Shown piece after piece: positions 5,977 through 26,641 of a DNA stretch of 64,000 bases. The notes beneath the pieces are model-generated. The model saw only the letters and a list, made by a program, of their open reading frames with translations. It searched no databases and had not been told where the DNA came from. The stretch's first letter is position 1; each line of letters starts with the position of its first letter. The position numbers and the translations under genes are program-made. Origin of the DNA: Candidatus Thorarchaeota archaeon (GTDB lineage: Archaea; Asgardarchaeota; Thorarchaeia; Thorarchaeales; Thorarchaeaceae); contig JAGXKG010000003.1 in assembly GCA_018335335.1 (NCBI GenBank), forward strand, positions 1-64,000. The letters run 5' to 3'.

Positions 5977-6054
5977 CGCTGGCCCCCCTCTCTCCTAAAG
6001 GGACCTCGCAGGGGGAATTCAACCCCTGATAGCTTCGCACGTATAACAAAGGAA

Positions 6055-6063: not shown

Positions 6064-6101
6064 CATTCTGGAAAAATTGCATGCACGAATTCCCACAACC
6101 C

Positions 6102-6109
6102 ATATATAC
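6102..6109 (+). promoter_or_regulatory. Predicted TATA box of the small secreted protein gene
   Basis: ATATATAC lies about 30-37 bases before the ATG at 6139. That predicts a start near 6131 and an almost leaderless transcript. Together with the oppositely oriented TATA at 6055-6063, it makes the region a compact divergent promoter. Confidence 0.5.
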
Positions 6110-6138
6110 TTCTCTTGCAATCGTGATAGAGAGAGTTT

Positions 6139-6648
6139 ATGACCATGAAATCTCCGAGATGGCGTTCATGGTGGGGTTTGAAGAAAACAACAGTCATCAT
6201 CGCAGTGATTTTTTCATTGTGTGTAGTGATGGTCACCAGCCCTTCCGCAAGAGCAACTGAAACCCCTTCACATGAATCTATTGCAGAAATTGAGGTTTCG
6301 ATTGAAGATGCTTGTTATCTCGACTTGGACCTCGATTCCTTCGAAGATGATGTGTATGTTCTTCTGAGGTTCGATCTAGCAGATTTCGATTATTACGAAT
6401 TTGCCTACATCATTACACTCGAACTACCTTCGGGCATCGAGTATTCTTACCTCGTGTACGTTTGGGCTTGGGTTGATGTTGTCTATACTAACAACCTCTT
6501 CTATAATCATGCAACAGAAAGCGGCAATTACACCGTCTACGTGGATGCTGCAATGGTAAGTCCCTTCTTTGCAACAGATTTTGAGGAATACATGTTCGAC
6601 CCGCCGGGTGGCAGTGAAGGCGGCAAGCCGACGTTCGGTGTTCACTGA
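6139..6648 (+). CDS. Small secreted acidic protein of unknown function
   Basis: A 169-residue protein with an N-terminal signal peptide: a basic start, hydrophobic residues ~17-34, and a likely cleavage after the SARA region near residue 40. The mature part is rich in Asp, Glu, Tyr and Phe and ends in a Gly/Pro tail (DPPGGSEGGKP). I recognise no family. It shares a short divergent promoter region with the secreted subtilisin, so it could be coexpressed with it as a substrate, partner or inhibitor; that is inference from position only. Confidence 0.65.
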   Translation: MTMKSPRWRSWWGLKKTTVIIAVIFSLCVVMVTSPSARATETPSHESIAEIEVSIEDACYLDLDLDSFEDDVYVLLRFDLADFDYYEFAYIITLELPSGIEYSYLVYVWAWVDVVYTNNLFYNHATESGNYTVYVDAAMVSPFFATDFEEYMFDPPGGSEGGKPTFGVH

Positions 6649-6716
6649 GATACTATGCTGGTGTGCAATTGCGTTGACCGGTTACTTTGATTACATGCAG
6701 AATCCGCCATTGAGTC

Positions 6717-7913
6717 GTGACTGAAATGGTTCTTTGGTCGAGCTACGGATTAGATCGCAAGGACTACCTCATCTTCTTATGTCTGGAACAGGATCCATCT
6801 CTGAGCAATGCATCAATAAGCGAAGAAGTAAGCGAGACAGAATCGATTTCGGCCGAGTCGGTTAGAACGCGGATTCAAAAAATGAAGGAATCCGGTTTTC
6901 TGCGTCCTGATCGAACGATAGAGGACCCTGTCTTGGGGGAACGGACCCAAACAGAAGTCGAAGCAGTGTATAATCCCCACCAGATCGGTCTCTTGCGGCA
7001 ACATGTTCTCTTTCAGGGTGTGCCAAATAATAGGTCCCTTGATGGATTAAAAGCCGCCTGTGATTCTCACCCTTATACTCATTATCGGACCCTCGGATAC
7101 AGCAAGGGTGCTACTTTGTATGCACAATTCGATATACCTCCATCGGCCATCGAGACCATGCATTGTTTCTACACCGAGCTTGAGGAACGCCAGCTATTTG
7201 CAAATCTCCATGTCTATGAAACACAATCTCTAGCTAAACATGAAGCTGATTTCCATGAATGGAACCTCGTAGATAACAAATGGTCTATGGAATATGGCAC
7301 AAAATCGAGGAAGGGGACTGGTCTTAGTAGAATAGAGAATCTGTGGGATGATTTCCTGCAGTCTCACGACGAAAAGGGGTTGGAACAGAAATCTCCCGAA
7401 ATGGCATTCACCTTGGATGAACTGGACATGGCCTTACTACGGGAATTAACAATTAATGGAACCCCTTCTATCAAACCTCTCGGACCAATACACAATAGAG
7501 ATCCTTCCACAATCTCTCGCAGAATCAGTCGTCTAAAAGAAACAGTTGCAGCTGACGATATGCTCTACTATGACCGTTCAGTGTTTGACCTCACTTATCC
7601 CCAGCTTGTTGTAGGTCGGTTTCTCCAGGACAACGAGATGAATGCTGATAGTCTCTACTGGTTCATTGAGTCAGGGGGGCTTCCATTTGAGTCAAAGGGG
7701 ATCATAGACGACGATGAGTTTATCCTGTTTATTACGACGCCTCCATCGGTTGCTCCCGAGATTTCCGAATTCATGTGGGAACATAGTGCTGAGATTGACG
7801 TTTTTCAATTGCAGCTGGATTCCTCGTTCACGTACTATTTCTATCACAAGAATTACTTAGGCAATGGTAAATGGAACACCAACAGAGACTACCTCTTGGA
7901 TGAACCACTGTAA
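6717..7913 (+). CDS. Two-module HTH (Lrp/AsnC-like) transcriptional regulator
   Basis: A 398-residue protein built of two similar halves. Residues ~12-60 contain a winged-helix-like segment with sequential HTH features (LSNASISEEV ... VRTRIQKMKESGFL). Residues ~235-285 contain a second one (DELDMALLRELTINGTPSIKPL ... STISRRISRLKE), typical of Lrp/AsnC-type HTHs. Each is followed by an alpha/beta segment of ~120 residues that may be a ligand-binding or dimerisation domain. No membrane segment is seen. The GTG at 6717 is used here; an ATG three codons later is equally possible. The target genes are unknown; it stands alone between a secreted protein gene and a convergent aminopeptidase. Confidence 0.65.
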   Translation: MTEMVLWSSYGLDRKDYLIFLCLEQDPSLSNASISEEVSETESISAESVRTRIQKMKESGFLRPDRTIEDPVLGERTQTEVEAVYNPHQIGLLRQHVLFQGVPNNRSLDGLKAACDSHPYTHYRTLGYSKGATLYAQFDIPPSAIETMHCFYTELEERQLFANLHVYETQSLAKHEADFHEWNLVDNKWSMEYGTKSRKGTGLSRIENLWDDFLQSHDEKGLEQKSPEMAFTLDELDMALLRELTINGTPSIKPLGPIHNRDPSTISRRISRLKETVAADDMLYYDRSVFDLTYPQLVVGRFLQDNEMNADSLYWFIESGGLPFESKGIIDDDEFILFITTPPSVAPEISEFMWEHSAEIDVFQLQLDSSFTYYFYHKNYLGNGKWNTNRDYLLDEPL

Positions 7914-7967
7914 TCTATTTCCTAGATGGAAAATACTCCCACTGAAGACGGAATGCAATCCGAAGCC

Positions 7968-9011
7968 CTATTGCTGAGCATTCAGAAAGGCATGGATGAG
8001 CTGAATTGTGGTTTCAATATCCGTTGGATTCACTGTCTCGAAACTACTGTGAGTATATCTGCAAGGAACGCCCAGTGCTGCTACCACCTCCCCTTGGGAC
8101 GCGATTTGGAACCCATCAGTTGCATAGTTGTGGAACACAGCCCTTTGCACTGGAAGCCCTTCTTTCTCTGCCGCTTCTAGGATCCTGCTATTGAGAGAAT
8201 GAGAATAATGGATTTGATTGTCTTTGATAACTAATGATGGACCACCCCCTAGGGAGACGCCAGATTCGCCCTCAGTACCTGGATAGTCATCAGCAAGGCC
8301 CACATCAATTATGATGACTCCGTCAACGTCCAAATGATTAGCTACCGAAGCTGCCCCCTTGGCACCCAATTCCTCCATTACTGTAGAGATGAACGTTATA
8401 GTTGGATGATTCTTGTGAGACGTTTTCTGCAGTCTTCCAAGAAGACCAATCATGATTGCTAGGCCAACTCTATCGTCCATGGCCTTCCCGACTAAATTGT
8501 TCCCGATTTTTTCAACGCCTGCTGCATACAAGACTGGGTCACCAATTGCAATCCCCGCGTCATGCACTTCTTCTGCTGAGGCCATTCCTATGTCAATGAA
8601 CACATCGTCCCATTCGGGCAGGGATTTTTTACCCTCTTTTCCTGCTATGTGGGCGGTCTTTACACAGAAACAGCCTGGGACAAACCCCCCATCTTTCATT
8701 ATTGTCACTCTTTGGCCGGGAAGAAGGCGCAAATCCGGCATGTGACTTTGTGTATTCCATTTGGCTTGAATGAACCCTTCATCGTTTACGTTGCTCACCA
8801 AGAAACCTACTTCGTCTGCGTGAGCAACAATCGCGTAATGATGATTTGTTCCTTTAATGGTCGCTCGAATGTTACCTATTTTGTCTCTTTCAACTTCAAG
8901 CCCATGCCTTTGGAAATGATCTGTCATCCTGTCTTGGACGAGGTCTTCTCTCCCGACGGGTCCTGGAGTCTCACTTAGAGTTGTTATGAGCTCGGTGATG
9001 CCATCTCTCAT
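7968..9011 (-). CDS. M42 family aminopeptidase
   Basis: A cytosolic metallo-aminopeptidase of 347 residues, usual length for M42 (TET-type) peptidases, which trim peptides into amino acids. Expected metal ligands are visible: His64 (AHADEVG), Asp179/180 (GKAMDDRVG), Glu213/214 (VMEELG, which includes the catalytic base), Asp236 (IDVG) and His321 (RYTHSS). The order and spacing fit the family. It is a single gene converging on the HTH regulator. With the M20 peptidase, the subtilisin and carriers in this window it fits peptide utilisation. Confidence 0.92.
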   Translation of the reverse strand: MRDGITELITTLSETPGPVGREDLVQDRMTDHFQRHGLEVERDKIGNIRATIKGTNHHYAIVAHADEVGFLVSNVNDEGFIQAKWNTQSHMPDLRLLPGQRVTIMKDGGFVPGCFCVKTAHIAGKEGKKSLPEWDDVFIDIGMASAEEVHDAGIAIGDPVLYAAGVEKIGNNLVGKAMDDRVGLAIMIGLLGRLQKTSHKNHPTITFISTVMEELGAKGAASVANHLDVDGVIIIDVGLADDYPGTEGESGVSLGGGPSLVIKDNQIHYSHSLNSRILEAAEKEGLPVQRAVFHNYATDGFQIASQGEVVAALGVPCRYTHSSFETVNPTDIETTIQLIHAFLNAQQ

Positions 9012-9251
9012 TGGTGCAGTCTTCCTTTGTAGTTTTCCATCTAATTGCAGGAGTCTATGAGGTGTGATGCTTATTCTCGTTCTGCAGGTATTGAATTGGT
9101 ATGCAAAAACAGGTTTTTGGATTTTCCTAAGGCTGAATCATTCTTGTGTTCTACTTCCTATTCTTCGCCCTTTTTCGGTCAAAAAATTGTATAGCTGGTG
9201 TATTTCAACACAATTACGGGTGCATATATTTCACCATTACCAATACATAGT

Positions 9252-9707
9252 ATGGCGTTACTGGACATCGTTATTGGCCTTGGAGTTGGCTTACTCATTG
9301 CAGTTATTGTATATGCGGCTATGAAAGCAAGGCTCCGACATCGTATTGAAATGGTCGAGGCAGAGTTTCGAAAGACATGGGCAGAGCAGGAATCAGACAT
9401 ACGAAAAGATGCTAGCCGTCGCAGCAGGTATGTACTGAAAGGAAAAATCGCAGAGCATATGGTACCCATGCTAAGCGATGTTTTTCAGTATGATCCATCA
9501 GATGCTCGCTTCTTAGGTGCTCCAATTGATTATCTCATTTTTGACGGTTATACCGCTGCAAAGGACCAAGGCTCTCCCTCACCGATTACCGTCGTCTTGG
9601 CTGACATAAAGACAGGCAACGCTAGGCTCAACAAGACGGAACGCAAAATCAAAAAAGCGGTCGAAGATGGACGAGTCCGTTGGGAAACAATACGGTTAAA
9701 TCTGTAG
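9252..9707 (+). CDS. Membrane-anchored endonuclease-like protein (COG4741, Holliday-junction-resolvase related)
   Basis: A 151-residue protein with one N-terminal hydrophobic helix (~3-23), a charged coiled segment (~28-70), and a C-terminal domain with D-Y-L-I-F-D-G, then VVLADIKTGNARLN. That D...D-I-K-T-G pattern matches the predicted endonuclease family distantly related to archaeal Holliday junction resolvases. The Asp-X-Lys pair would be the nuclease active site. Its role in the cell is not established; the helix suggests attachment to the membrane. The frame is open back to 9198, but the ATG at 9252 begins directly before the helix and fits the family start. Confidence 0.8.
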   Translation: MALLDIVIGLGVGLLIAVIVYAAMKARLRHRIEMVEAEFRKTWAEQESDIRKDASRRSRYVLKGKIAEHMVPMLSDVFQYDPSDARFLGAPIDYLIFDGYTAAKDQGSPSPITVVLADIKTGNARLNKTERKIKKAVEDGRVRWETIRLNL

Positions 9708-9825
9708 ATGGATTTGAGATATTTTGGACTAATGGGTCTGAGTTGCCCCTGCTTACCGGGCAGATATCTTATTTGTAAATAGTTCTCTTAACAAAAAAGA
9801 ACTTGCCCTTTAGGAGAGGCCGAAG

Positions 9826-10281
9826 ATGAAAATGAGCCTGTTCGAATACAAACCCGGAAGAATCTATGGCGGATCTCTGCCTCAGGAACGGGATTTGATT
9901 CGAATCAGGGGGTCGGATATTGATGTCGTTATTTCCCTAGAAACAGATTATCCTCTTCCAGATTTCGAAGGTCATGGACTCGAGCACTACGAGCTGCCTT
10001 TAAGGGAGTTTGGTATCCCCTCTGATGAAGATGTTATTCGATTCATCAGATTACTCAAAGATGTGTTCTCTCAAGGAAAGACCGTGTTGGTTCATTGTTT
10101 TGCAGGCTGTGGTCGAACAGGAACTATGCTGGCATTAGCCGAGCTCTATCTCTTTGAAGAGGATACTGCCACGGGTGCAATAAAGAAAGTTCGATCCATT
10201 AGGCCATGTGCGATAGAAACTACTGGGCAGGAAAACGTTATTGCTCGGCACGCTTCCTACCCATTGGAGACTATTGAATAA
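9826..10281 (+). CDS. Dual-specificity protein phosphatase
   Basis: A 151-residue cysteine phosphatase with the signature HCFAGCGRTG (His90, Cys91, Arg97), the P-loop of the protein tyrosine/dual-specificity phosphatase family. Cys91 is the expected nucleophile and Arg97 the phosphate-binding residue. A conserved upstream segment (DIDVVISLETDYPLP) resembles archaeal and eukaryotic small DSPs. A ribosome binding site GGAGAGG precedes the ATG. It would remove phosphate from Ser/Thr/Tyr residues or from a small molecule; the substrate is unknown. It is a single gene, convergent with the aldo/keto reductase. Confidence 0.88.
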   Translation: MKMSLFEYKPGRIYGGSLPQERDLIRIRGSDIDVVISLETDYPLPDFEGHGLEHYELPLREFGIPSDEDVIRFIRLLKDVFSQGKTVLVHCFAGCGRTGTMLALAELYLFEEDTATGAIKKVRSIRPCAIETTGQENVIARHASYPLETIE

Positions 10282-10352
10282 CTGAATTACACTTGCAAGT
10301 ATGTGCACTTCTGCTTCATGTATTTTGCACCATCATTGAATGAATTCACTTC

Positions 10353-11360
10353 TTAATGATAATACTGTGTCTCCTCTTCGTGGTATACATTAGGTGCATA
10401 TGTCCTTGGCCATTCCGGTTTATTATCAAGGACGTCCTCTATCCTCTGGATTACATCGTCTGGCAATTCGACATCTGAAGCTCCAGTGTTTTCTGCAATA
10501 TGCTCCGGTTTCGTAGCACCAATGATTGCCGCAGAAATCTCCCGCCTTCTGAGTATCCATGCTAACGCCAGCTGTGTCATTGTGATATCCATCGAATTGG
10601 CAATCTCTTCAAGTGTGTTCAGTTTCGCCCGCCACTCGTCCGTGAGATATTTGAGAAATCCGGGGGATCTATCCCCTCGACTGCCTTCAGGTATGCCTTC
10701 ATTGTACTTGCCTGTGAGAATGCCTTGGTATAGCGGGGACCAGACGGTGAAGCCCATTCCAAGTCGATGCGCTACCGGCATGATTTCAGTTTCAATGTGT
10801 CTGAAGAGCATGTTGTACATGGGCTGTTCGACGATGGGCGCATGTGCACCGAGTTCTTTGGCCGTAGCATGCACTCGCTCAAGCTGTGCAGCTGTCCAGA
10901 CGGATGTGCCCCAGTAATGTATTCTCCCTTCTTTGATCAAATCATCAATAGCCATCACGGTTTCGCGTAATGGTGTTTTCGGGTCAAATCTGTGCATATA
11001 GTAGATGTCAAGGTAATCTGTTCCTAGTCTCTCAAGTGTATCATCAATCGCTTTCATGATATTCTTTCTGCTTAATCCCCAGTCATTGACGTTCTGGCTC
11101 ATTGGCCAGAAGACCTTGCTCGATATGACTAAATCATCTCTATCGACCGTCTCCTCTTCCAACCACTCTCCGATGACTTCTTCAGCGCCACCTTTGGCAT
11201 AGATTTCTGCAGTATCTATGAAATTGATATCATGGTCGATAGCTGCGGAAAGGCATTTCTTTGCTCTATCCGTTTCCACTGTTTTGCCGTATGTGAGCCA
11301 AGACCCTAATCCAACCTCGCTTATTTTTAAACCACTGTTTCCAACTTGCCTATACCGCAT
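10353..11360 (-). CDS. Aldo/keto reductase
   Basis: A 335-residue NADPH-dependent oxidoreductase of the AKR superfamily, close in pattern to Kv-beta/YghZ-type members. The catalytic tetrad is in place: Asp49 (FIDTAEIY), Tyr54, Lys82 (VISSKVF) and His123 (YYMHRFD). A nucleotide-binding tail (AAIIGATKPEHIAENTGA) is also seen. It probably reduces an aldehyde or ketone, possibly in detoxification. It is a single gene; it diverges from MsrB, another redox-defence enzyme, with about 86 bases between the starts. Confidence 0.93.
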   Translation of the reverse strand: MRYRQVGNSGLKISEVGLGSWLTYGKTVETDRAKKCLSAAIDHDINFIDTAEIYAKGGAEEVIGEWLEEETVDRDDLVISSKVFWPMSQNVNDWGLSRKNIMKAIDDTLERLGTDYLDIYYMHRFDPKTPLRETVMAIDDLIKEGRIHYWGTSVWTAAQLERVHATAKELGAHAPIVEQPMYNMLFRHIETEIMPVAHRLGMGFTVWSPLYQGILTGKYNEGIPEGSRGDRSPGFLKYLTDEWRAKLNTLEEIANSMDITMTQLALAWILRRREISAAIIGATKPEHIAENTGASDVELPDDVIQRIEDVLDNKPEWPRTYAPNVYHEEETQYYH

Positions 11361-11446
11361 CTTTCTCTCTTCCTCGATACAAACATATAAGATAGCTATA
11401 GTTAAGAGTTATGTGTTTTAAAGGCAACGATATGTGAGATGATATC

Positions 11447-11833
11447 ATGAAGAAAAGTGACAAGGAATGGAAGGAAGCCCTAAGTAAGGAAGAGTATTAT
11501 GTGCTGAGAAAAGCAGGTACAGAACCCGCCTTCAGTGGAGAATTCGTTGAGCATAAGGCCGACGGGACCTACGTATGCGCGGCATGCGGCAATGAGTTAT
11601 TCCCCTCGGGCACCAAATTCAAATCTGGATCAGGGTGGCCAAGCTTCTGGGATAAGGTGTCTGAAGATAGTATTGAAACACGTCAAGATAAGAGCCATGG
11701 GATGACCCGGACTGAAGTCTTGTGTGCCAAATGTGGTGGGCACCTGGGACATGTGTTCAAGGATGGTCCAGATCCAACTGGCTTGAGATACTGTATCAAC
11801 TCGGTTGCACTAGACTTCGAGGAAGAAGAGTAA
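11447..11833 (+). CDS. msrB: Peptide-methionine (R)-S-oxide reductase MsrB
   Basis: A 128-residue enzyme that repairs oxidised methionine in proteins. The structural zinc site is formed by two CxxC pairs, Cys44/Cys47 (CAACG) and Cys93/Cys96 ([12 protein letters not shown]). The catalytic Cys116 lies in RYCINSVAL, the MsrB signature. SGSGWPSF near residue 60 is also typical. The length equals a stand-alone MsrB. No MsrA is nearby. It diverges from an aldo/keto reductase. Confidence 0.96.
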
Positions 11834-11892
11834 GTAACACATCCCTAGCTGCCCCAATGGGGTTTTATTGCGCCCCTACATCTGGCTCTATC

Positions 11893-12291
11893 ATGAACCG
11901 AGAAATGCACCAGAAAGTGATGTATACAGTCGCAGCGATTTGGAACTGGGTTCTAGCCATTCTGTTCCTTGTTCTGCCTAGAATCGATATTGGCTACTTC
12001 GGGATATCCGGCAATATAGTTCCGCCCACATTCTTGTGGTTCGACTGCTTCATGGGACTCGTATTTGCGTTTGGAATCGGATTCTACTTGGTCAGTTTGA
12101 ATCCTGAGAAGAATCGTGATTTGCTACTGGTTGCTATTTTTGAGAAATGCTGGGTTTTCGTCATAGGTCTATACTACTTCATTGCAGGAGAAGCATCAGT
12201 GTGGGTTCTTGCTGTGGTTACTGGGGATCTTCTGTTTGGATTGCTTTTTGCCGAGGATGTACTGGCGATGAGGAGAGCAAGCCCAACCTGA
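11893..12291 (+). CDS. Small integral membrane protein, unknown
   Basis: A protein of 132 residues with four hydrophobic segments (~14-33, ~44-66, ~80-97 and ~103-122) and a short basic C-terminus. I recognise no family with certainty; it resembles small four-helix membrane proteins of unknown function. The frame is open further upstream, into the end of msrB, but the ATG at 11893 gives a sensible start before the first helix. It follows msrB by 59 bases and its stop is one base from the next (opposite-strand) gene stop. Confidence 0.6.
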   Translation: MNREMHQKVMYTVAAIWNWVLAILFLVLPRIDIGYFGISGNIVPPTFLWFDCFMGLVFAFGIGFYLVSLNPEKNRDLLLVAIFEKCWVFVIGLYYFIAGEASVWVLAVVTGDLLFGLLFAEDVLAMRRASPT

Positions 12292-12292
12292 A

Positions 12293-13375
12293 TCATAGTA
12301 AATCAGACGGGTCGACACCTCTGGATATAGCCTTCTGTGTCATCCAGTCTACCATGTTCTCTGGTAGGGATTTGTTTCTCCCTTTTCTTGAAATCAACGT
12401 CAACGCGTCCTGAGGACATTTCAGCGCGCACACACCGCATCCAATGCACCTGTTGCTCTCGAGTTGGCAAACACCATCTATAACCCTAAGAGCATCGAAC
12501 TGACAACGTTCTACACACGTACCACATCCGATGCAGCGTTTTTGGTCAACTGAGAGGATGAAGTCAGAATTGACGAAAGCATGCGGCTGATTTGAATCAG
12601 AAAGCCCTCGAAGAACATTGCAGCAGCACGTGCAACAATTGCAGATATAGTAGTGGCCACTCTGTATGTTCATGGAGCAGTGGACAAGACCTGCTTCTTC
12701 CGCATCTTGCAGTATCTCCAGTGATTCTTCGATAGAAATGGACTGTGTTAACTCATCTTCATCAAATGCACGCTCTTTATTCGGTGCTAGCGTCAAACAA
12801 ACAGTTTCTGGGTATTTACATTCATTTCCAAGAAGTCGCTGTTGTTTCTTGCATATGCATTCCCTTAATCCCCAAGAGCTCGAATTCTTAATCATCTGTT
12901 CAGCCTGCTGATATGGATATATCTCCAAATTTGGTTGAATCACTTCGTTAACTGGAATGACTTTGAAAATGGCTGGCTCAGTATCGAAAAGTCCTGCTCC
13001 TCGTGAATTGATGAAGTAGTTCTCTGCGAGCTGAGCAAATTCTTCATCCATTCGGTTGAGTTGCTCTTCATAGATTCCTACAGCAAATGGCATCAGAGCG
13101 TATTTTCTTCCTGTACTGGAATTCCATGCGCTAATCTGCCCTTTCTTGGCCATTTTCTCGAGGAGTGGTTCTAGCTCATCTGAATTCCTTCCCAGCCGAG
13201 TAGACAGATCTTCCAGCTTCTCACCTCTGAGTTTCATCTTACTTGCAAGCGCTGCTTCATCAGCCGCAAAAATCCACTTCAATATCTCAATATGACCATC
13301 ATTTTCTGTAGCTGCAAAACCATTAGGAATCGTGTTCAGAACTTCTGCTAGTTCCTCCCAGACATCATTCTCCAC
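12293..13375 (-). CDS. HTH and 2[4Fe-4S] ferredoxin-domain protein with extra cysteine cluster
   Basis: A 360-residue cytosolic protein. Residues ~40-95 look like a winged helix (EDLSTRLGRNSDELEPLLEKM). Residues ~165-190 hold C-I-C and C-K-Y-P-E-T-V-C cysteines. Residues ~245-255 have a dense cysteine cluster (CNCCTCCC). The C-terminal third carries two ferredoxin motifs, CIGCGTCVERC and CIGCGVCALKCP, each binding a [4Fe-4S] cluster. Related archaeal and clostridial proteins are annotated only as 4Fe-4S binding proteins. The DNA-binding-like N-terminus and metal centres suggest a redox-linked role. The DUF362 gene, another family tied to ferredoxin domains, lies upstream on the same strand. 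Confidence 0.8.
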   Translation of the reverse strand: MENDVWEELAEVLNTIPNGFAATENDGHIEILKWIFAADEAALASKMKLRGEKLEDLSTRLGRNSDELEPLLEKMAKKGQISAWNSSTGRKYALMPFAVGIYEEQLNRMDEEFAQLAENYFINSRGAGLFDTEPAIFKVIPVNEVIQPNLEIYPYQQAEQMIKNSSSWGLRECICKKQQRLLGNECKYPETVCLTLAPNKERAFDEDELTQSISIEESLEILQDAEEAGLVHCSMNIQSGHYYICNCCTCCCNVLRGLSDSNQPHAFVNSDFILSVDQKRCIGCGTCVERCQFDALRVIDGVCQLESNRCIGCGVCALKCPQDALTLISRKGRNKSLPENMVDWMTQKAISRGVDPSDLL

Positions 13376-13847
13376 TAGGAATCACCCGCACTTACTCGTT
13401 ACGAGACCATATAATGTCTAGGTCGTACTTGAAATTGACAATTTAAACCGCCTAATAGGTGAAAGAAACACGCTTCTATCTCTGGAGCAGCTTCTTGACT
13501 TCCTTTATCCTATCTGCAGATTCCACTCCTTTTTCCCCAAATATCTTCGAAGGATTGCAGGTTCGTGCTAGGAGAGATTCGAGAAGAAAAAGAAACAAGC
13601 ATTCTTTTGCCACAAAGAATTTTCTAGTATGGCGAAATCAAATAGTGGTCATGGTTGCAGAACAGCTAATCATTCTCAAGTTTTCTCATCGATGAACAAA
13701 GCCTTCTATCTCCGTTACGGTACCCAAGACCCGAAACAACACATCTTGGTGAAGATGTTAATACATATCAATCACTAGGGTGTGAATTTCAATGGGTGTT
13801 ACTAACATGGATTTCGATGGATTGGGTGCTGGAATCACATACAACCG
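13376..13847. other. Intergenic region without a convincing gene
   Basis: This 472-base stretch holds no gene I can support. A 78-codon plus-strand frame (13459-13695) has a basic, low-complexity product and no recognisable motif. A hairpin with 7-bp arms (ACATCTT/AAGATGT, loop GGTG) is at 13741-13758. A 19-codon frame beginning with ATG at 13792 after AGGGTGTGA is possible but unsupported. Confidence 0.4.
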
Positions 13848-14684
13848 CTAAGGCGCCTTGAACTGAACCATAAGAGAATCTATGTCCTCGCCAAGAACTC
13901 GCGGATTGACATCGCCCAAGTCATGTTCTGCGCATTTAGCTAGATGTTTGATTTCCTGAGGATCAAAGCCCATAATACGAGCCATAGTTGCATCAACAGA
14001 GACTGGACTGTAGCCAAGTATGAATGAATCAAGCACTCTCTGCTTTGGACCATTCCAACTCTCCAAACCAACGCGTGCGTCAACGATGCAGAGATTTGGT
14101 TGAACGAGTCTATTCAAATCAACGATTATCTCGTCAATATCCGAATGGAACATCGACTGCTGTTTCTCAGGTAACAGCCCGAACTGGTTCTTGAGCGCTC
14201 CTGTAATCCAGGTCAGACTATGTGTTTTTGCGGTTGCTATAGATATGAAGAATCTGTGGTCTATAATGGTGTTCGGGAATTCAGGGTTTTTGAAATGGAA
14301 CCCGTCGAAATCCACAGAGCGTTTTAGTGAATGACTTAGATTGACTGTAGATACATCATACCCCTTTTCTTGTATATTCTGAGTTAATTGATTATATCCG
14401 AACTTCTCGAACGCCTCATCAGCATATTTACTTTGGCTGTCCGATTCTACTATTCGAATCTCTAGGTCTTCTCTTTGTTCAAGTAGAATGTCCACGACTG
14501 CCTTAACAACTTCTATGTTTGTCACGGTGTGACCGGTGCTATTATCTATTGTACAAATATTCGGCTTCAAGAGGACGGGTGATTGCAGCCCCCCAAATCC
14601 CCCAAGGAGGTTCAATCCTGTTTCTATCGTCTGTCGAACAGTGCCTTCATTTTTCACAAGCGCAACTGTATCCACGGCAATCAC
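13848..14684 (-). CDS. DUF362 domain-containing protein
   Basis: A 278-residue protein of the DUF362 family: LLKPNIC near residue 42, TGHTVTNIEVVKAVVDIL, and the conserved K-T-H (AKTHSLTWITGALKNQFGLLP) segment. Family members are often fused to ferredoxin domains or lie next to iron-sulfur genes; this one lacks the ferredoxin part but precedes an iron-sulfur protein gene on the same strand. The biochemical function of the family is unknown. Length is shorter than the fused forms (~370 residues), as expected for the stand-alone form. Confidence 0.85.
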   Translation of the reverse strand: MIAVDTVALVKNEGTVRQTIETGLNLLGGFGGLQSPVLLKPNICTIDNSTGHTVTNIEVVKAVVDILLEQREDLEIRIVESDSQSKYADEAFEKFGYNQLTQNIQEKGYDVSTVNLSHSLKRSVDFDGFHFKNPEFPNTIIDHRFFISIATAKTHSLTWITGALKNQFGLLPEKQQSMFHSDIDEIIVDLNRLVQPNLCIVDARVGLESWNGPKQRVLDSFILGYSPVSVDATMARIMGFDPQEIKHLAKCAEHDLGDVNPRVLGEDIDSLMVQFKAP

Positions 14685-15018
14685 AATCCTGTTATGACTG
14701 TTTCGTCTCTTAAATTAGTGATTGGTCGTGTTCCTTTCTCAATGGCCATATATGACCGAACATGTGAGCAACTTTTCACAGAAAGGGTATAGCCACTGCC
14801 CATAATATATACTCGTGTGAACTACAATGTCTCATTCAAGAAATACAACCAACAAGCGAGCTATTCTGAAACACTCAACAAAAGGGCCAAGTACTGAAGC
14901 ACTGTGTCATGCATATCGGTATCGGAAGTAGTGGAGCCGAGTATTCTCGCTCCCTCTTTCGCCGATATGATGATTTGCCACATTTGCCTTCAGTATAATT
15001 TGGGGTCTTTTTTGGTGA
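14685..15018. other. Intergenic region, possible promoter of the DUF362 gene
   Basis: No gene or stable RNA was recognised in these 334 bases. On the minus strand an AT-rich CATATATGG at about 14746-14754 could be the TATA element for the DUF362 gene, about 65 bases before its start. The rest, including ATAATATATAC near 14803-14813, is AT-rich with no clear assignment. Confidence 0.35.
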
Positions 15019-15795
15019 TTAAGACGCCAGAAACTCGATAAGTATCTGGTTGAGCTTATCCTGCCTCTGGACTGTAGGTGAATGACCACATTCTGAAAAC
15101 GTGATAATCCTAGAGTGCGGGATTCTATCATGCATGAGTTTCGCAAGACTGACATCCATTATCTCATCTTCCTCGCCATGAATGATGAGTGTCTCTGCGC
15201 TAATCTCCGGCAGCCTGTCAGTGACATCAAACGAAGCCATACCGAGTCCCGCAGCAAGCACTCCCTCTTGGTTTACGAGATCCTCTTTGCTCATCAAGTA
15301 CTCGATTAGCTCAGGATTGTTGTCCATGAAATCTTGTGGATATGTGCTGCGCATTGAAGCCTCCTGATATGCAGCGGGACCGCCTTCTATCTGTGCTTCG
15401 CGCCATGAATACACTTCGTCGATTGTCTCTTCAGTGATTCTTGGGGTTGTATCAATAAGAACGAGCTTATCTACAAAGTGCGGATAATCTAGGGCGAATT
15501 GTTGAGCTATCATTCCACCCATCGAGTGGCCTACGACATGGACTGACTCATACCCCAGCTTCTTGAGAAACGTGGCCAAATCGTTGGCGAAATCCTCGGT
15601 TGAGACTGCATCTGCATCCGGACCGTCGGAGTGACCATGGCCTCTCTGATCTGGCATGAGAAGGGTGAAGTGTTCTGCCAATGCGTCTTCCTGAAATTCG
15701 TAGCCGCGTATATCACCGCCTAGGCCGTGAACAAATAACACTGGTTCTCCTTCTCCGGTAATTCGGTAGAACATCTCGATTCCGTTGATTTCCAT
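15019..15795 (-). CDS. Alpha/beta-fold hydrolase
   Basis: A 258-residue soluble esterase-like enzyme of the alpha/beta hydrolase fold. The oxyanion HG motif is VHGLGGD (residue ~23). The nucleophile elbow is GHSMGG with Ser91. The acid is in IIHGEEDE and the catalytic His in ECGHSPT near the C-terminus. No signal peptide is present. Substrate cannot be assigned; similar sequences are annotated as esterases, lactonases or 3-oxoadipate enol-lactonase-like. It diverges from the PEP carboxykinase gene. Confidence 0.9.
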   Translation of the reverse strand: MEINGIEMFYRITGEGEPVLFVHGLGGDIRGYEFQEDALAEHFTLLMPDQRGHGHSDGPDADAVSTEDFANDLATFLKKLGYESVHVVGHSMGGMIAQQFALDYPHFVDKLVLIDTTPRITEETIDEVYSWREAQIEGGPAAYQEASMRSTYPQDFMDNNPELIEYLMSKEDLVNQEGVLAAGLGMASFDVTDRLPEISAETLIIHGEEDEIMDVSLAKLMHDRIPHSRIITFSECGHSPTVQRQDKLNQILIEFLAS

Positions 15796-15905
15796 AGTGG
15801 GCAGGTTCTATAACCTCCTGTGTTTAATACCCGTTAGATACATTACCTCCACTTAAGACTAGAGATGATGGGTGAAGGAAGAACCAGCTGCAATATCCAT
15901 GGGGC

Positions 15906-15914
15906 TTATATTTA
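15906..15914 (+). promoter_or_regulatory. Predicted TATA box of PEP carboxykinase
   Basis: TTATATTTA lies only a few bases before the first in-frame ATG at 15919. A normal archaeal spacing would place the transcription start near 15936, downstream of that ATG, so the box argues for a later translation start at 15937 or 15973. Confidence 0.45.
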
Positions 15915-15972
15915 ACACATGACGCCCCTCAGTCCCATGATGGCAGCGAAATCCGCCAGGGAGACAGACCGC

Positions 15973-20142: not shown

Positions 20143-20859
20143 ATGTTGTTCCGCCCCACACAGGGGTCGATACAACTGAACACAGTACTACAAATAGAGG
20201 ATGCAACGAAACACTATAGAATGGGTGAAGTGACAGTCAAAGCCTTACGTGGAGTCAGTTTTGATGTCCACCAGGGCGAACTGATTTCAATTCTGGGACC
20301 AAGTGGAAGCGGCAAATCCACCTTGCTTAACTTAGCGGGTGCCTTGGACCGACCAACTAGCGGGAAAGTGGTCTTGAGTGGTGTGAATTTGAACGAGCTG
20401 GATGATAACGAGCTTGCTGGCATGAGGAAATCGGTTGGTTTTGTTTTTCAGTTCTATAATCTCATACCCCGGCTAAATGCCAAGGGGAATGTCGAGCTTC
20501 CGCTTACCATTGCAGGAATGTCAAAGGAGGAGCGAAAAGCCCGAGTAACTGATGCCTTGACCAAGGTTGGTCTTGGAAAGCGAATGGATCACAAACCTGC
20601 TGAGCTTAGCGGCGGTGAACGTCAGCGTGTTGCTATTGCACGGGCACTTGTGAATAATCCAACATTCTTGCTCATGGACGAGCCAACTGGCAATCTTGAT
20701 TCAGAGACGGCTCAAGACATCATGGAGCTTGTTATAGGGCTGAATGAAGAGCAGCACATTACTTGTATCATCGTCACTCATGATCCAGAAGTTTCCAAGG
20801 AAACGCCACGGATTCTCAGAATGCGTGACGGGCATATCGTGTCTGACGGGGGGAACTAG
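20143..20859 (+). CDS. ABC transporter ATP-binding protein, MacB/LolD type
   Basis: A 238-residue ATPase subunit. Walker A is GPSGSGKST, the Q-loop is VFQFYNLIP, the signature is LSGGERQRVAIARAL, Walker B is FLLMDEPTGNLDS and the switch His is in VTHD. These sequences match the LolD/MacB group, which powers FtsX-like permeases that export peptides, antibiotics or lipoproteins. It begins 3 bases after the PadR stop and ends 1 base before the permease start, so the three genes form one operon. Confidence 0.93.
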   Translation: MLFRPTQGSIQLNTVLQIEDATKHYRMGEVTVKALRGVSFDVHQGELISILGPSGSGKSTLLNLAGALDRPTSGKVVLSGVNLNELDDNELAGMRKSVGFVFQFYNLIPRLNAKGNVELPLTIAGMSKEERKARVTDALTKVGLGKRMDHKPAELSGGERQRVAIARALVNNPTFLLMDEPTGNLDSETAQDIMELVIGLNEEQHITCIIVTHDPEVSKETPRILRMRDGHIVSDGGN

Positions 20860-20860
20860 A

Positions 20861-22120
20861 GTGAAAGCACGTGATACACTATCATACTCATTTGGTGCCA
20901 TTCGTCTACGAAAGGTTCGGTCTGGCCTGACCACTTTGGGAATCGTTATTGGCGTTGGGGCGATAGTTGCACTCCTATCCTTCACTCAGGGTTTCCAGGT
21001 GGCAATAACTGGCCAGTTCCAAGAAGGTCTTTCTACTGATGTTGTGACTGTACAGACAGGCTCAACTGGTTTTGGTTTCAACAGTAACGGAGATAGTGAC
21101 TTCACACTGTACGCGAACGATACTGAGCTTGTTAACGAGATAGATGGAGTTGTTACTTCTAGCGCCACGATTTCTAAGACCGTTACTGCTGAATTAGACG
21201 ATTCGGATAGAACACTCAGCCTAACCGGGGCAGACTTTGATACATACCGCGAATTGTATTCAACATTTGTCGCCGAACATGGGATTATACCTGACAATCC
21301 TGATGATGATGAGATGGTTATTGGACACAGTCTTTATGATCCGTGGAATAACGGAACACACCTAGTAGAACCTGGCGATACCGTGAATGTATACTACACG
21401 GTGAGAAACGGAACCAAGCTGGTACCTGTCAACAAGTCAGTGACAATCGTTGGGATTCTGGAGGAAATCGGTGCCTTTGGATTCGGCCCCTCTGACACGG
21501 GGGCGTACATATCCCTAGAATCAGCAATGGAGTACTTCGATTCAGAAGAGATTTCTCAAATCTCAGTCAAGCTTGAGAGTGATGATAGTGACTTTATCGA
21601 CTCAGTTTCGGAAGACATTGAGGAGCTATTCCTCAACGAGGTGTCAGTTGTTTCTGCCACAGCAATGCTGAATACCATTTCTAATGCTCTTGACACTGTC
21701 GAGCTTCTCCTTGGGGGAATTGCTGGGATATCGCTTCTTGTTGCAGGGATTGGAATCATGAATATCATGATTGTCTCCCTCATGGAGCGCACTCGAGAAA
21801 TTGGAATTCTGAAGGCATTAGGCTCAACCGGCAGGAATGTGCTGCTCATCTTTCTTGGAGAAGCACTTCTTATTGGTTTGATTGGTGGTGCCCTCGGGAT
21901 TGGGGTTGGGGCACTCCTAGCCAATTTCTTTGGTCGATTCATGAGTGGTTTAGGAGGTCCTGGAGCTCAACGTGCCCCAATGGCCATCACACCCGTCCTA
22001 ACACCCACATTGGCCCTTGAGGCCTTGCTCTTCGGAGTACTTGTGAGTGTCGTGTTTGCACTCTACCCGGCATGGCGAGCCTCCAAGCTGGAACCAGTAG
22101 AAGCGCTTAGAAGTGAGTAG
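20861..22120 (+). CDS. MacB/FtsX-type ABC transporter permease
   Basis: A 419-residue permease. One N-terminal helix (~25-50) follows the usual LRKVRSGLTTLGIVIGVGAIVALLS start. A large extracytoplasmic domain (~55-270) follows, and then three C-terminal helices including the FtsX motif GIMNIMIVSLMERTREIGILKALG. It partners with the preceding ATPase. The frame remains open into the ATPase gene, but the GTG at 20861, just after its stop, gives the standard N-terminus. Export of a peptide or toxic compound is likely but the substrate is unknown. A hairpin terminator follows. Confidence 0.92.
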   Translation: MKARDTLSYSFGAIRLRKVRSGLTTLGIVIGVGAIVALLSFTQGFQVAITGQFQEGLSTDVVTVQTGSTGFGFNSNGDSDFTLYANDTELVNEIDGVVTSSATISKTVTAELDDSDRTLSLTGADFDTYRELYSTFVAEHGIIPDNPDDDEMVIGHSLYDPWNNGTHLVEPGDTVNVYYTVRNGTKLVPVNKSVTIVGILEEIGAFGFGPSDTGAYISLESAMEYFDSEEISQISVKLESDDSDFIDSVSEDIEELFLNEVSVVSATAMLNTISNALDTVELLLGGIAGISLLVAGIGIMNIMIVSLMERTREIGILKALGSTGRNVLLIFLGEALLIGLIGGALGIGVGALLANFFGRFMSGLGGPGAQRAPMAITPVLTPTLALEALLFGVLVSVVFALYPAWRASKLEPVEALRSE

Positions 22121-22204: not shown

Positions 22205-22319
22205 CCATGAGAGCAGCTCTTCTCAAACCTCCTGATGACATGAAGAAGCTGTCTGATGTGGTTTTTTTTGAGTTCGTCAACAAAAGAAGATGAAGCGTGA
22301 AGTTGAGGGATTTTCCTGA
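22205..22319 (+). pseudogene. Remnant of the 3' end of an HTH-LAGLIDADG gene
   Basis: Bases 22205-22260 match 25648-25703, inside the intact LAGLIDADG gene, at 54 of 56 positions, in the same orientation. The similarity then continues at the protein level after a frame change in an 8-T run: QQKKMKREVEG (22278-22310) against QQEERKQDVEH in the intact gene, and stops at TGA 22317-22319. No other part of that gene was found here. It is therefore a frameshifted leftover of a second copy, about 1.5 kb on the 5' side of the intact gene's start. Confidence 0.75.
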
Positions 22320-22502
22320 CAAAGAAATCGTATGGATTTGCATATTCTTCACTCTTGGTTCAGAGTTCCTGGTAGAATAAGGACACAGACGAATCAGCTT
22401 GCACGACCAGTTGGGATTACTGTAGAATCGATTCCAGATGTTGTTCTAACACAGGGCGCGGTCTGATGGGGCTTTCTTCGGGCTCACACAAACTAGTTAT
22501 GC
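22320..22502. other. Short gap without recognised features
   Basis: Nothing supportable was found between the pseudogene remnant and the stop of the BMP lipoprotein gene. It could hold further decayed pieces of the remnant copy, but I see no alignment by eye. Confidence 0.3.
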
Positions 22503-23660
22503 CTACCAGTACTTGCTACTTGGAACCGTAAGCTCGCCATCTATTATTTTCTGTTTTAGGTTCTCAACAGCAGTTATGATGTCGGCAGGCAGAGATAGCA
22601 AATCTTGATTCGTCTCATAACCTAGACCACCATTAGCTAAATCGAAGACCTGAACGCCTCCTTGAAACTGGTTATTGTACACGTTCTTGATGTTTTCATA
22701 CACCGCCACATCAATCTTCTTCAACATGGAAGTAACACAGACAGTTGGCGGCTCAGGGTTCTCCGGATTTTCAGTGCCAAGATACATCTGAGGACTATCG
22801 GAACCAATAACCCACACATTATGATCAGTATTGTTGTTTTTGGCAGCCGTAAATGCTCCTAGGCCGGCACGACCAGCGGCAGTGTAAATAGTATCGACAC
22901 CATTTGCGTACATTCCGTCAGCTAGATTCTGACCTGCTGTTGTGTCTGTCCATGACCCTGTATAGCTGACCGTGAAATCGATTCCGGGGTTAGAATAATT
23001 GGCTCCCCAGACATAACCTGCAGCGTATCTGTTAACTAATGGTATATCCATGCCGCCAATAAATCCAATCTGCTCTCTTTCTGTCCACATCCCCGCAATT
23101 GCACCAACAAGAGCTGAACCTTCATGCTCATCAAATACAGCACTGGAGACGTTGGGTTGATCCACCACCGTGTCAATTATGCAGAATTTCTGATTGGGAT
23201 AGTCCTCCGCAGTTTCGTTAAGCGATTCTGCTTGGTCAAATCCTATTGATATAATCAGTTCATACGGTTCACGCCCTTCAGGATCCGCATAGTCTCTTAG
23301 ATGGGTCTCATATTCCGAAATTGATTCAGGCTCAACATAGTCAAAGTCCCAACCAAAATCGTTTTCGAATTGTTGCGCACCTCTGAAGGCAGCGTCATTG
23401 AATGATTTGTCGCCTAGTCCACTTGTTGTGAACACAATTGCAATTTCGCCATCTTGCATTGGTTCTGTGGGAGTAGTCGTAGTCGGACTGGTCATTGTAG
23501 TGGTTGTTGTAGGAGTGGTTGTAGTGGTATTCCCATTTCCGTTAGTTGACCCCGAAAATAAGAAGAATCCCAAGGTCACTCCCATCAACAAAACAATAAT
23601 AACAGCCGCAGCGATAGTTCTGATGCTTGTCGATTCCTTTTGTGCTAGAGGCACTTCCAA
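22503..23660 (-). CDS. BMP/PnrA-like surface substrate-binding protein
   Basis: A 385-residue secreted or membrane-anchored binding protein. Residues ~12-35 form a hydrophobic anchor. Residues ~40-70 are a Thr/Pro-rich linker, probably glycosylated. The rest is a BMP-family (PnrA/TmpC, nucleoside-binding) fold: IAIVFTTSGLGDKSFNDAAFRGAQQ, then ISIGFDQAESL, FCIIDTVVD, HEGSALVGAIAG, IGFIGGMDIPL, and VIGSDSPQ. It probably captures nucleosides or a related ligand. The frame is open to 23870, but a TTG at 23658-23660 with GGAGGGT upstream gives a natural N-terminus; the longer start would overlap the divergent gene. No ABC permease is next to it. Confidence 0.85.
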   Translation of the reverse strand: MEVPLAQKESTSIRTIAAAVIIVLLMGVTLGFFLFSGSTNGNGNTTTTTPTTTTTMTSPTTTTPTEPMQDGEIAIVFTTSGLGDKSFNDAAFRGAQQFENDFGWDFDYVEPESISEYETHLRDYADPEGREPYELIISIGFDQAESLNETAEDYPNQKFCIIDTVVDQPNVSSAVFDEHEGSALVGAIAGMWTEREQIGFIGGMDIPLVNRYAAGYVWGANYSNPGIDFTVSYTGSWTDTTAGQNLADGMYANGVDTIYTAAGRAGLGAFTAAKNNNTDHNVWVIGSDSPQMYLGTENPENPEPPTVCVTSMLKKIDVAVYENIKNVYNNQFQGGVQVFDLANGGLGYETNQDLLSLPADIITAVENLKQKIIDGELTVPSSKYW

Positions 23661-23816
23661 ACAATTTACCCTCCATTTCCATACGCTGAAGACAATACAA
23701 AAGAATTTCTCTTGTTTACCTTTCTTTGGATATCTGGAGGTTTGGCTGGAGGTGCCTGTATATGCTTTAGTATCTTCATGAGATACTATTGAGGAGAATT
23801 CATAGATACATTGAGG

Positions 23817-25802
23817 ATGCGCGACTTGGAATTCAATGGAGAAGGCACTCGGAAAAGCTACACATTTCATGAATCTGCTTATCCAACCGAGGTTTTCCTA
23901 GATAGTTTTCCCCAGTCAGTAGAAGAATTGAATTGGATGCTCAAAAGACACCCTCATTTGCGTGAATACAATCATTTCTCCGAATATTATCGCAGATGCG
24001 TATCGTATATTCGTCTCAAGAAGAGACAAAAGAAAGGCAATCTCGATGATGTGACATATACCGAATTAGCAAGGCAGTATCATGTATCGAGGGGTGTAAT
24101 TGGTTCATGGCTACGAGGCGAAAAGTCACCTGAACTCGCTAACATGCTGGTAAGGAGCGAAATCAGACGTAGAGAATACGAAGCCAGATTCAGCCATATG
24201 GCGTTCAGACATCGAATTGACCCCAGTACTGTTTATACTGTCCTAGAGCCTTTGCGGAAAAATGACATATTCACGATTTCAACTCTACAGGATGCTATCG
24301 AATCTCTATATGATTTTGTAGAGAACAAACCCGGCGTGACATTTGCGGAGCTTCGGCCATGCCACAGAATCAAAGGAAAATGGCTTGGAGGAATAGCAGA
24401 ATCGATAGAGGATGCCTTACAAGAGATACAGGAGCAAATCAATCGCGGTCTTGGTTTAGACGAAATCCTTACACGAGAGCTTCGCCTTGGTGTCGTTCAG
24501 GACAGATTATATTTCAGAATCCACGACCGTGACCCTCTGAACTGGTTCAACCTCTACAAGAACGAATTGTTCTATTTCACTTCCATTAATGAAAAAATAG
24601 AGCTTATGGCTGATGCGAGAAAACGATTGGGCATTCACGGTGATACGGTGCTCAGCTACCTAATAGATCAAATCACTGACTACCGGCGGACAGTTGAGAC
24701 TTTCAATCAGAATTCAGACCTGAAACGGAACCATGCATACCTGCGCGGGGAGACACTACATTTCCTACTTGATGTCGTTGAAATGACAATCCAGGACATA
24801 CAAGAGAAAATCGATTGCGTTGGACGAAGCTATGGGAACCAAGCTGGCTCGATTCGGAATCCGCGCTTTCCTGACGACCAACACGAAATTAGCATGATAC
24901 TTGTGAGGCTGCTCGGAGCGGGGATGTCCGATGGTCATATTGAGAGTAGAAACAAAGGTTTCGTCTATACAGAATCGAATGAAGATCGTGCCGAAATTTT
25001 CAAAGCGCACATGAATGAGCTTGGAGAGGTCGACTATGATGAGAAGCAGTTGACTAATGGAATGATACGGATACGCTTCCCAACTATTGTTGGTCGCATG
25101 CTTGCTAGGCTAGGGATGCCATTGGGAGACAAGGCTCTTTCCTGTACCGGTTTGCCTCGGTTCATCAAGGAAGCATCATTCCCCGTGATTTGCGAGTATT
25201 TCCAGCAAATGTGGGTCGAGGATGGCAACTTTAGCGTGGTTAGTGAGGGGTGCCGAGCAAGGTTTCAGTGGGACCGTGGTGTCACTTTTCGGGATCCATC
25301 CAAAGCGACCAAGTATGACTTTCAGTCATTGGCCTCGGATGATCATATTGCACTCGTTCGTCGGCATGGAGACAAACATCAGGATAAGACCTTTGGCGAG
25401 ACATCCACCTTAACACTTGGGAAATTGAATGAGCTATGCGGGACAAAAGAAACAAACGAAACAATGAACGCGAAGTCTTTGAAAGAATTAATTGAAAATA
25501 ACCCACCAAATCTCATGGAAGACGAAATTGAGCTATTAGCAAAACTTGGAGTCTCTGCAAAGAAGTATGTGGTTGAAGTGAATTTCTATGAAGGAACGGG
25601 TCGTCTTTCTGCTCTCTGGAGGGCTTTAACTTGCAGACAAGAGGATACCATGAGAGCAGCTCTTCTCACACCTCCTGATGACATGGAGAAGCTGTCTGAT
25701 GTGATGAGATGGGTCTTTCAGCAAGAGGAACGGAAACAAGATGTTGAACATGACCTTGCTGCAGAAGGAATCGACGACTGGCCTTTCCGCTCTCTGGAAT
25801 AA
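23817..25802 (+). CDS. Free-standing HTH-LAGLIDADG homing-endonuclease-like protein
   Basis: A ~660-residue cytosolic protein. Near residues 82-103 is a helix-turn-helix (TYTELARQYHVSRGVIGSWL). Two LAGLIDADG-type motifs follow: LLGAGMSDGHIES (~366-379) and FQQMWVEDGNFSV (~464-476), each ending in an acidic residue as needed for metal-dependent cleavage. No intein splicing blocks are seen at the ends, and it is not inside another gene. Function by homology would be site-specific DNA cleavage or a regulatory role derived from it. ATG at 23817; the TTG at 23811 is less likely. A decayed copy of its 3' end lies at 22205-22319. Confidence 0.75.
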   Translation: MRDLEFNGEGTRKSYTFHESAYPTEVFLDSFPQSVEELNWMLKRHPHLREYNHFSEYYRRCVSYIRLKKRQKKGNLDDVTYTELARQYHVSRGVIGSWLRGEKSPELANMLVRSEIRRREYEARFSHMAFRHRIDPSTVYTVLEPLRKNDIFTISTLQDAIESLYDFVENKPGVTFAELRPCHRIKGKWLGGIAESIEDALQEIQEQINRGLGLDEILTRELRLGVVQDRLYFRIHDRDPLNWFNLYKNELFYFTSINEKIELMADARKRLGIHGDTVLSYLIDQITDYRRTVETFNQNSDLKRNHAYLRGETLHFLLDVVEMTIQDIQEKIDCVGRSYGNQAGSIRNPRFPDDQHEISMILVRLLGAGMSDGHIESRNKGFVYTESNEDRAEIFKAHMNELGEVDYDEKQLTNGMIRIRFPTIVGRMLARLGMPLGDKALSCTGLPRFIKEASFPVICEYFQQMWVEDGNFSVVSEGCRARFQWDRGVTFRDPSKATKYDFQSLASDDHIALVRRHGDKHQDKTFGETSTLTLGKLNELCGTKETNETMNAKSLKELIENNPPNLMEDEIELLAKLGVSAKKYVVEVNFYEGTGRLSALWRALTCRQEDTMRAALLTPPDDMEKLSDVMRWVFQQEERKQDVEHDLAAEGIDDWPFRSLE

Positions 25803-25850: not shown

Positions 25851-26264
25851 CTACTTCAGTGGTACGTATGCAGAGCTCTTGGTAGCTCCGATACCGGGGC
25901 TGCCATGCTTAACCTTCTTGTTAGTGATAGCGAACTCTCCTAAACAATGTCCAATCATAAGCGGAGTGACTTTAACATCTTGGAAGCGATAACCGTCGTG
26001 AACTCCAAAGGTGAGGTCTACCATTTCGGGGAGAATGACCATGTCGCGGCAGTGAGTTCGGATGACTGGGGCCTTTCCTTTCTTGAGTTTCTTGCGAGCA
26101 TCCCTGACCTTCTTGAGGAGTTTCTTCTGGCGCGGAGGAAGGCCTCGTTTAAGAGATCGTCTGCGTCGAGCTGGGAGGAGTTCGATGAGATCGTCCATGC
26201 TCATTTCGACGAGCTCTTGGATTTTGTAGCCACGATATGTTGGTTCTCTGCCACGTTGGGACAT
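25851..26264 (-). CDS. rps19: 30S ribosomal protein S19 (uS19), archaeal type
   Basis: A 137-residue protein that binds the head of the small ribosomal subunit. Archaeal/eukaryotic features include YRGYKIQELVEMSMDDL (an N-terminal extension absent from bacterial S19), PVIRTHCRDMVILPEMV, IGHCLGEFA and KHGSPGIGATKSS near the end. The start follows GGGTGAT, a good ribosome binding site. In most archaea this gene sits in the S10/L2-L22-S3 cluster; here it is alone, beside a LAGLIDADG gene, with no other ribosomal gene in the window. Confidence 0.95.
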   Translation of the reverse strand: MSQRGREPTYRGYKIQELVEMSMDDLIELLPARRRRSLKRGLPPRQKKLLKKVRDARKKLKKGKAPVIRTHCRDMVILPEMVDLTFGVHDGYRFQDVKVTPLMIGHCLGEFAITNKKVKHGSPGIGATKSSAYVPLK

Positions 26265-26641
26265 GTAATCACCCTATGAATTGGGGAATATACTATTGGT
26301 AGTAATTCAATGTGATGCCTTGAAAGTGTGAATTTAAGGGTTATGCAGCAGCTGTTGAAAACTTCATGACTTGGATCAATGGGGTCGACAGGGTCGTTTT
26401 CATCCATTTCCTTGAGCTTGTTTCTGATCTCCGACTCGGTCAACTCATCGGCGTTTGGAATCGTTCCTTTGAATGCCTCCAGTTCCGCCTTCTTGGAGAA
26501 TGCCATGTCAGCTCTTCTGTCCCATTCCCTTATTTTGCAATCCATATCTGTTTGCTCCGTCTCATCTATCTTCTTCAGAAGACGCTGACAGTCTGAAACA
26601 GAACGGGTATTTTTGCATATGGCTAGAAGCAGAACAAACAC
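26201..26641 (-). CDS. Doubtful charged small protein overlapping the S19 start
   Basis: A 146-codon minus-strand frame between the TPR gene and S19. The middle section (about residues 18-95) has a hydrophilic helical composition like real protein, with KKIDETEQTDMDCKIREWDRR and acidic PNADELTESE. The last ~40 codons read into the 5' part of S19 in a different frame and look non-coding. It may be the remains of a gene or chance. No family is recognised. The region 26265-26693 otherwise contains only the S19 promoter/leader. Confidence 0.25.
   Translation of the reverse strand: MFVLLLAICKNTRSVSDCQRLLKKIDETEQTDMDCKIREWDRRADMAFSKKAELEAFKGTIPNADELTESEIRNKLKEMDENDPVDPIDPSHEVFNSCCITLKFTLSRHHIELLPIVYSPIHRVITCPNVAENQHIVATKSKSSSK

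Follow-up and report, generated by a model that had tools for sequence, protein, structure and literature searches.

A candidate homing element beside the ribosomal protein S19 gene in a Thorarchaeota genome

In the yeasts Torulaspora and Lachancea, WHO elements insert by homing next to FBA1, which thereby receives a new 3′ end while the displaced one stays downstream (Coughlan et al., 2020, eLife 9:e55336, PMC7282813); they were recognized in 2020 as a third structural class of homing elements and are known from few yeast genera (PMC7282813). The thorarchaeal gene family described here resembles them in having a free-standing gene for a LAGLIDADG endonuclease beside a full-length host gene, a host 3′ end duplicated on the far side (here at the loci of relatives), successive 3′ ends that accumulate, relic fragments (here in the window and at L190), and mostly one host gene with occasional new hosts. 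It differs in being archaeal, in having an HTH-like region at the N terminus while neither a Hint nor a zinc-finger domain was detected, in the use of at least ten host genes, including tRNAs, where WHO elements use mainly FBA1, in an orientation that is often convergent with the host gene, and in its passenger genes (BMP here; ATPase and partner genes elsewhere).

The closest folds of the predicted nuclease part are those of VMA intein nucleases, archaeal TliVMA (Z 15.5) and PI-SceI (Z 12.5), together with I-DmoI (Z 13.2), and PI-PfuI was likewise among the matches, which span Z 12-15.5. Unlike the inteins, the thorarchaeal protein has no detected splicing domain and its host gene is uninterrupted; with I-DmoI and other archaeal intron-encoded LAGLIDADG enzymes it shares a predicted monomer with two LAGLIDADG motifs, but its gene lies outside introns and encodes a long N-terminal region. 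Another Asgard element, HeimM2 of Heimdallarchaeum, has a homing-endonuclease homologue beside conserved RNA genes (Wu et al., 2022, PMC8813620); its enzyme, however, is of the rRNA-intron type, situated between 16S and tRNA genes, and host 3′-end duplication is unmentioned in the portion of that paper drawn on here. A literature search on LAGLIDADG proteins or homing in Asgard archaea or Thorarchaeota, and on S19 as an integration site, recovered no description of such a system, and no report of WHO-type elements in archaea was found in the literature searched.

A repeated gene tail beside rpS19 and its counterpart in a related genome

The locus lies in the window, the 64,000-nucleotide stretch analyzed here, where a putative endonuclease gene stops 48 bp from the 3′ end of rpS19, beside that gene and not within it (Table 1). 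In Pfam, the window protein had only a weak HTH match, while one family member matched PF14528 (LAGLIDADG_3) above its cut-off. Both LAGLIDADG motifs and their acids (SDG, ED/EE) are conserved across the family, S373-D374-G375 and E470/G472 being invariant or nearly so in the family alignment. An AlphaFold (AF2) run on residues 300-663, from an alignment of the window protein and seven relatives, gave a model with pLDDT 81 and pTM 0.82, from which the structural matches above were obtained; the lone full-length protein gave pLDDT 34, leaving the N-terminal half without a reliable model. Neither a Hint domain nor a zinc finger was found by Pfam/NCBIfam, and a PDB sequence search with the family profile found no relative. 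The gene is thus predicted, from motifs and model, to encode a LAGLIDADG protein with a two-motif fold, a putative endonuclease.

Table 1. Features of the locus by window position, followed by loci elsewhere with arrays of rpS19 3′ ends
Feature	Position	Strand	Details
MacB/FtsX-type ABC permease gene (macB), left chromosomal flank	20744-22120	+	PF12704, PF02687; 93% aa identical in G001:C108
Left repeat copy	22205-22260	+	ATG at 22207; start of endonuclease C-terminal tail; probably older resident relic
Second tail, diverged continuation	22261-22330	+	frameshifted, stop at 22317; about 63% in register
Segment missing from G001	22261-25703 (equivalently 22205-25647)		3,443 bp; with the segment removed, both flanks are about 91% identical to G001
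BMP-family (PnrA-like) lipoprotein gene	22503-23870	-	PF02608, E 2.2e-61; inside segment absent from G001
HTH-LAGLIDADG putative endonuclease gene	23811-25802	+	663 aa; ATG at 23817; profile relatives, C-terminal model
Right repeat copy	25648-25703	+	inside intact endonuclease gene, codons 614-631
Remaining native tail	25704-25802	+	97% identical to G001 remnant
rpS19 (uS19), presumed host gene	25851-26264	-	convergent; PF00203, E 2.6e-31
rpS19 3′-end array loci	L155 (G028:C84) 905-15967; L154 (G006:C188); L156, L157, L158, L159, L161, L163, L227		remnants end at stop

A repeat search of the window returned the match that the first-pass annotation had reported between the two tail copies, identical at 54 of 56 bases (96%) with a spacing of 3443, and the partner copy was the sole strong match to this stretch in the 2.94-Mb assembly (E 6e-20). 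Both copies open at the ATG of codon 614 (plus two bases), share no sequence 5′ of that point, and encode part of the closing helices of the nuclease domain in the predicted structure. Beyond the repeat, the left copy shifts frame after a T run at 22262-22269 (VRQQKKMKREVEGFS vs VFQQEERKQDVEHDL) and terminates at the TGA at 22317-22319, as had also been noted; this continuation aligned in register to the gene tail, with a score equalled in 5 of 1000 shuffles and by 9 of 1583 other stretches of the window. Its homology is moderately significant alone and is strengthened because it is collinear with the 56-bp repeat. As proposed, 22205-22330 represents the tail of a further copy from the same gene family. 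The sharp drop in identity at 22260/22261 points to a recombination junction, not to gradual decay. The BMP lipoprotein gene reported between the copies was recovered as well; its open reading frame runs to the listed end, the true start is probably near 23660, and a paralogue (70%) occurs in the window's genome (G000:C12).

The window's genome (G000) was compared at this locus with the sole other genome of its genus in the comparison (G001), in which the orthologous contig (G001:C108, L033) carries macB, then a single 50-codon tail, then rpS19. This tail is 94% identical in amino acids to that of the window endonuclease, its left flank is the sequence preceding the left copy in the window and its right flank is the sequence following the right copy. 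Without the extra segment, identity between the window and G001 is about 91% across the aligned 5.9 and 3.1 kb. The same-locus comparison that had been called for thus found a tail in G001 with neither the BMP gene nor codons 1-613 of the endonuclease, the window being longer by one repeat-bounded segment of 3,443 bp. An assembly artefact was ruled out, since G001 has the left junction too, and a conserved protein runs without a break across the right one. A separate small gene was also considered for the 50-codon tail of G001, but a relic is likelier, because the tail corresponds to the C terminus conserved across the nuclease family (DAMRxALxxPPDDxRK); its differences between the two genomes, 3 non-synonymous and 1 synonymous, were counted towards a relic as well. 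In the GNAT acetyltransferase gene beside S19, intact in G001 (L033 6307-6813), the middle has apparently been lost in the window (26265-26640).

Because G001 has a single tail at this site, the left piece is best read as an older resident tail, that is, as empty-site sequence, and the intact gene with the BMP gene as a segment present only in the window. The first-pass annotation had instead seen a second full gene decayed beside the first, which the G001 locus does not bear out; its broader idea, that the gene had been copied or inserted here and then lost, is borne out as far as the gene is present in one of the two relatives and absent from the other. Neither rpS19 as the probable host gene nor the duplication of host 3′ ends at the loci of relatives had been noticed in it. 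The tail differs at 5 of 153 bases between window and G001, the intergenic flanks at 23 of 132 (Fisher 8e-5), so that the tails appear to have a common ancestor younger than the surrounding chromosome, as lateral conversion predicts; the tail could also have been homogenized by conversion following an older event.

This difference in divergence bears on the opposite polarity, in which the genus started from the two-tail state and homologous recombination between the 56-bp repeats removed the 3.4-kb segment from G001. A crossover within the repeat would yield exactly the G001 sequence, and the left, right and G001 copies are about equidistant (2-3 differences in 56), so that no order can be read from them. 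The comparison draws on one same-genus genome and on fragmented assemblies, in which no outgroup had macB directly beside S19. A tail in place since the split should, however, match its flanks in divergence, whereas it is much less diverged, and a deletion leaves the left piece's 96% over 56 bp followed by about 63% without explanation. We regard such a deletion as unlikely, though deserving more weight than the other alternatives considered below.

Relatives, host genes and displaced 3′ ends

A second element was found at ahcY in the window's own genome. One contig ends in an endonuclease gene and a 112-bp ahcY 3′ end (L219, G000:C15:30000-38679, 5884-8680), another (C4, L218) ends in ahcY, and the two share 127 bp exactly; joined, they give the order ahcY, endonuclease, displaced ahcY end (98% identical), downstream gene. 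In G001 (L217), ahcY is followed directly by the same downstream gene, an empty site. Between the two genomes the ahcY 3′ end differs at 5 of 112 bases and the gene at about 16%, which suggests, from this comparison of sequences, that the 3′ end has its own history. A third, broken relative in the window's genome (L035, G000:C1, 5198-6360) adjoins a membrane-protein gene near tRNA-Asn.

The empty site at ahcY also weighs on the simplest account of the window, a local duplication with gene conversion, in which no element moved and the gene's own tail was simply copied to the macB side. Template switching can create short direct repeats and could have made this one, and the left copy holds no more than tail. 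The left flank with its tail is, however, the only arrangement in G001, where the BMP gene and the gene body are missing, and the family shows the same presence and absence at ahcY; a purely local origin is accordingly very improbable.

A profile search of 227 genomes of the phylum found relatives of the endonuclease in 39, of which 31 belong to the window's family, and the named matches are from Candidatus Thorarchaeota. Single-protein scans of genome and virus contigs returned no relatives, nor did an alignment-based scan of virus contigs, while the alignment-based scan of genome contigs returned seven Thorarchaeota loci. At many loci a few tens of bases separate the end of the endonuclease gene from that of a conserved gene, the two being usually convergent. 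In Thorarchaeota-type genomes, the conserved genes just before relatives are those for S19, AhcY, Sm, NuoD, OTCase, SufS and tRNAs, with tRNA-Ala and tRNA-Val genes abutting two relatives, and further relatives again adjoin AhcY (G059), NuoD (G124) and Sm (G060). Endonuclease genes were also seen just upstream of rpL2 in two genomes (L229 5828-5963; L237 7702-7914). Additionally, larger versions of the element (L193, L191, L200, L206, L186, L036) have a HerA/TraG-like ATPase gene (about 850-1070 aa) upstream of the endonuclease and a small gene of no known type downstream.

Self-comparison of the loci revealed that the direct repeats flanking the endonuclease are 3′ ends of the neighbor gene, most of them ending at the stop codon. 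Duplicated host 3′ ends flank relatives at OTCase, SufS, NuoD/FpoD, VhuA hydrogenase, Sm-like and HDAC-like genes, with weaker cases at rubredoxin and ScpB. A displaced tail copy was present for 6 of 67 ORFs near an endonuclease vs 3 of 412 other ORFs (Fisher 4e-4), the adjacency statistic being modest when every neighbor is counted, and many relatives (e.g., L173, L184, L196) have no duplicated neighbor. In the window, no displaced or hidden S19 3′ end was found in 22261-23900; the far side bears an endonuclease tail in its place and, with no S19 end between the BMP gene and the left tail, the locus is without the defining host-gene duplication. Relic endonuclease fragments are present both here and at L190 (G008), a locus of comparable layout that has a 205-bp endonuclease fragment, identical at 200 of 205 bases, on the far side of the cassette.

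The S19 3′ end itself is duplicated elsewhere, its last 22-26 codons recurring as remnants in at least nine genomes (G028, G006, G060, G014, G035, G062, G017, G061 and G025). The two best arrays hold seven copies each, with one to few unrelated genes between copies in an integron-like layout. Remnants differ from the functional end almost only by synonymous changes (pN/pS 0.083, 21 copies), which argues that each remnant was once a working end. At one array locus in G025 (L163 1277-2811), an S19 3′-end remnant has a BMP-family gene next to it, a passenger of the type seen in the window. In the one-contig genome G022 (G022:C1), two full-length rpS19 genes lie 55 kb apart, at 1263512-1263916 (-) and 1318587-1318991 (+).

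Host-gene 3′ ends and tRNAs are classic att sites, and their use here, the exact stop of the arrayed S19 ends at the stop codon, and the company of HerA/TraG-like ATPases at some relatives are all features of a site-specific integrase element, with repeats as att sites of the tyrosine-recombinase type and the endonuclease only as cargo. No recombinase was found, however, among the 25 Pfam families listed, of 55 in all, for 38 array ORFs, nor in the segment specific to the window, and the tree shows the endonuclease tracking its host gene, as expected of a specificity factor; we therefore consider an integrase element improbable as an explanation of the window. For the arrays, in which a family profile search found no endonuclease relics, the possible builders include an endonuclease acting in trans, endonucleases since lost, or an integrase.

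Phylogenetic analysis bears out this tracking. Endonucleases lie beside S19 in G000 (the window), G006, G007, G033 (on contigs that overlap exactly over 149 bp) and G222. The S19-linked endonucleases of G000, G006, G007 and G033 formed one clade in the careful tree (support 92/55, unstarred), and in a wider quick tree they fell together in a group of eight whose inner branching is weakly resolved and which also takes in G222 and three endonucleases not beside S19, two of them preceding rpL2. The G222 endonuclease was placed in the S19 group before its neighbors were checked, and S19 (71% identical) was then found there. Mapped on the tree, the 13 host targets of 24 endonucleases required 12 changes, the minimum possible, which none of 5000 shuffles reached; with near-identical rows removed, the change count of the tree was reached in 3 of 5000. 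Judging from these trees, relatives at the same host gene group together, and the window gene falls in the S19-linked group.

Proposed mechanism and implications

Taken together, the window locus is likely a WHO-like homing element of the S19 group beside the tail of an older element, and the host gene of its endonuclease is probably rpS19. In such an element, the endonuclease would cut the 3′ part of the conserved host gene in an element-free allele, and repair would copy in the element along with a recoded 3′ end that preserves host-gene function, as the remnants suggest. The old 3′ end, with any remains of older elements, would be pushed to the far side, a displacement seen at several loci as flanking 3′-end duplications. 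The sequence originally resident beside S19 in the window would have been the tail of an older element, still seen in G001, and incoming DNA with the endonuclease body and the BMP passenger would have joined in register within it, restoring a full-length gene next to S19 and leaving on the macB side a fusion of the old tail's start with a diverged tail. The 56-bp direct repeat would be the outcome of this in-register joining, the crossover steps being a reconstruction that takes the G001 state as ancestral. We infer for the BMP gene a role as passenger.

More broadly, we hold it an even call whether Asgard archaea, in Thorarchaeota and neighboring families, harbor a large family of free-standing LAGLIDADG homing elements, faithful to their host genes, that replace the 3′ ends of essential genes as a counterpart of WHO elements and build the integron-like passenger arrays with spent rpS19 3′ ends between the genes. 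If the archaeal family works like WHO elements, the class would be either ancient or have arisen more than once, and its host range would reach ribosomal proteins, core enzymes and tRNAs. Lateral exchange would then affect where essential archaeal genes end and disturb gene trees built on these ends, and passenger genes, here a BMP lipoprotein gene, would have a concrete route by which to gather beside ribosomal genes in Asgard genomes.
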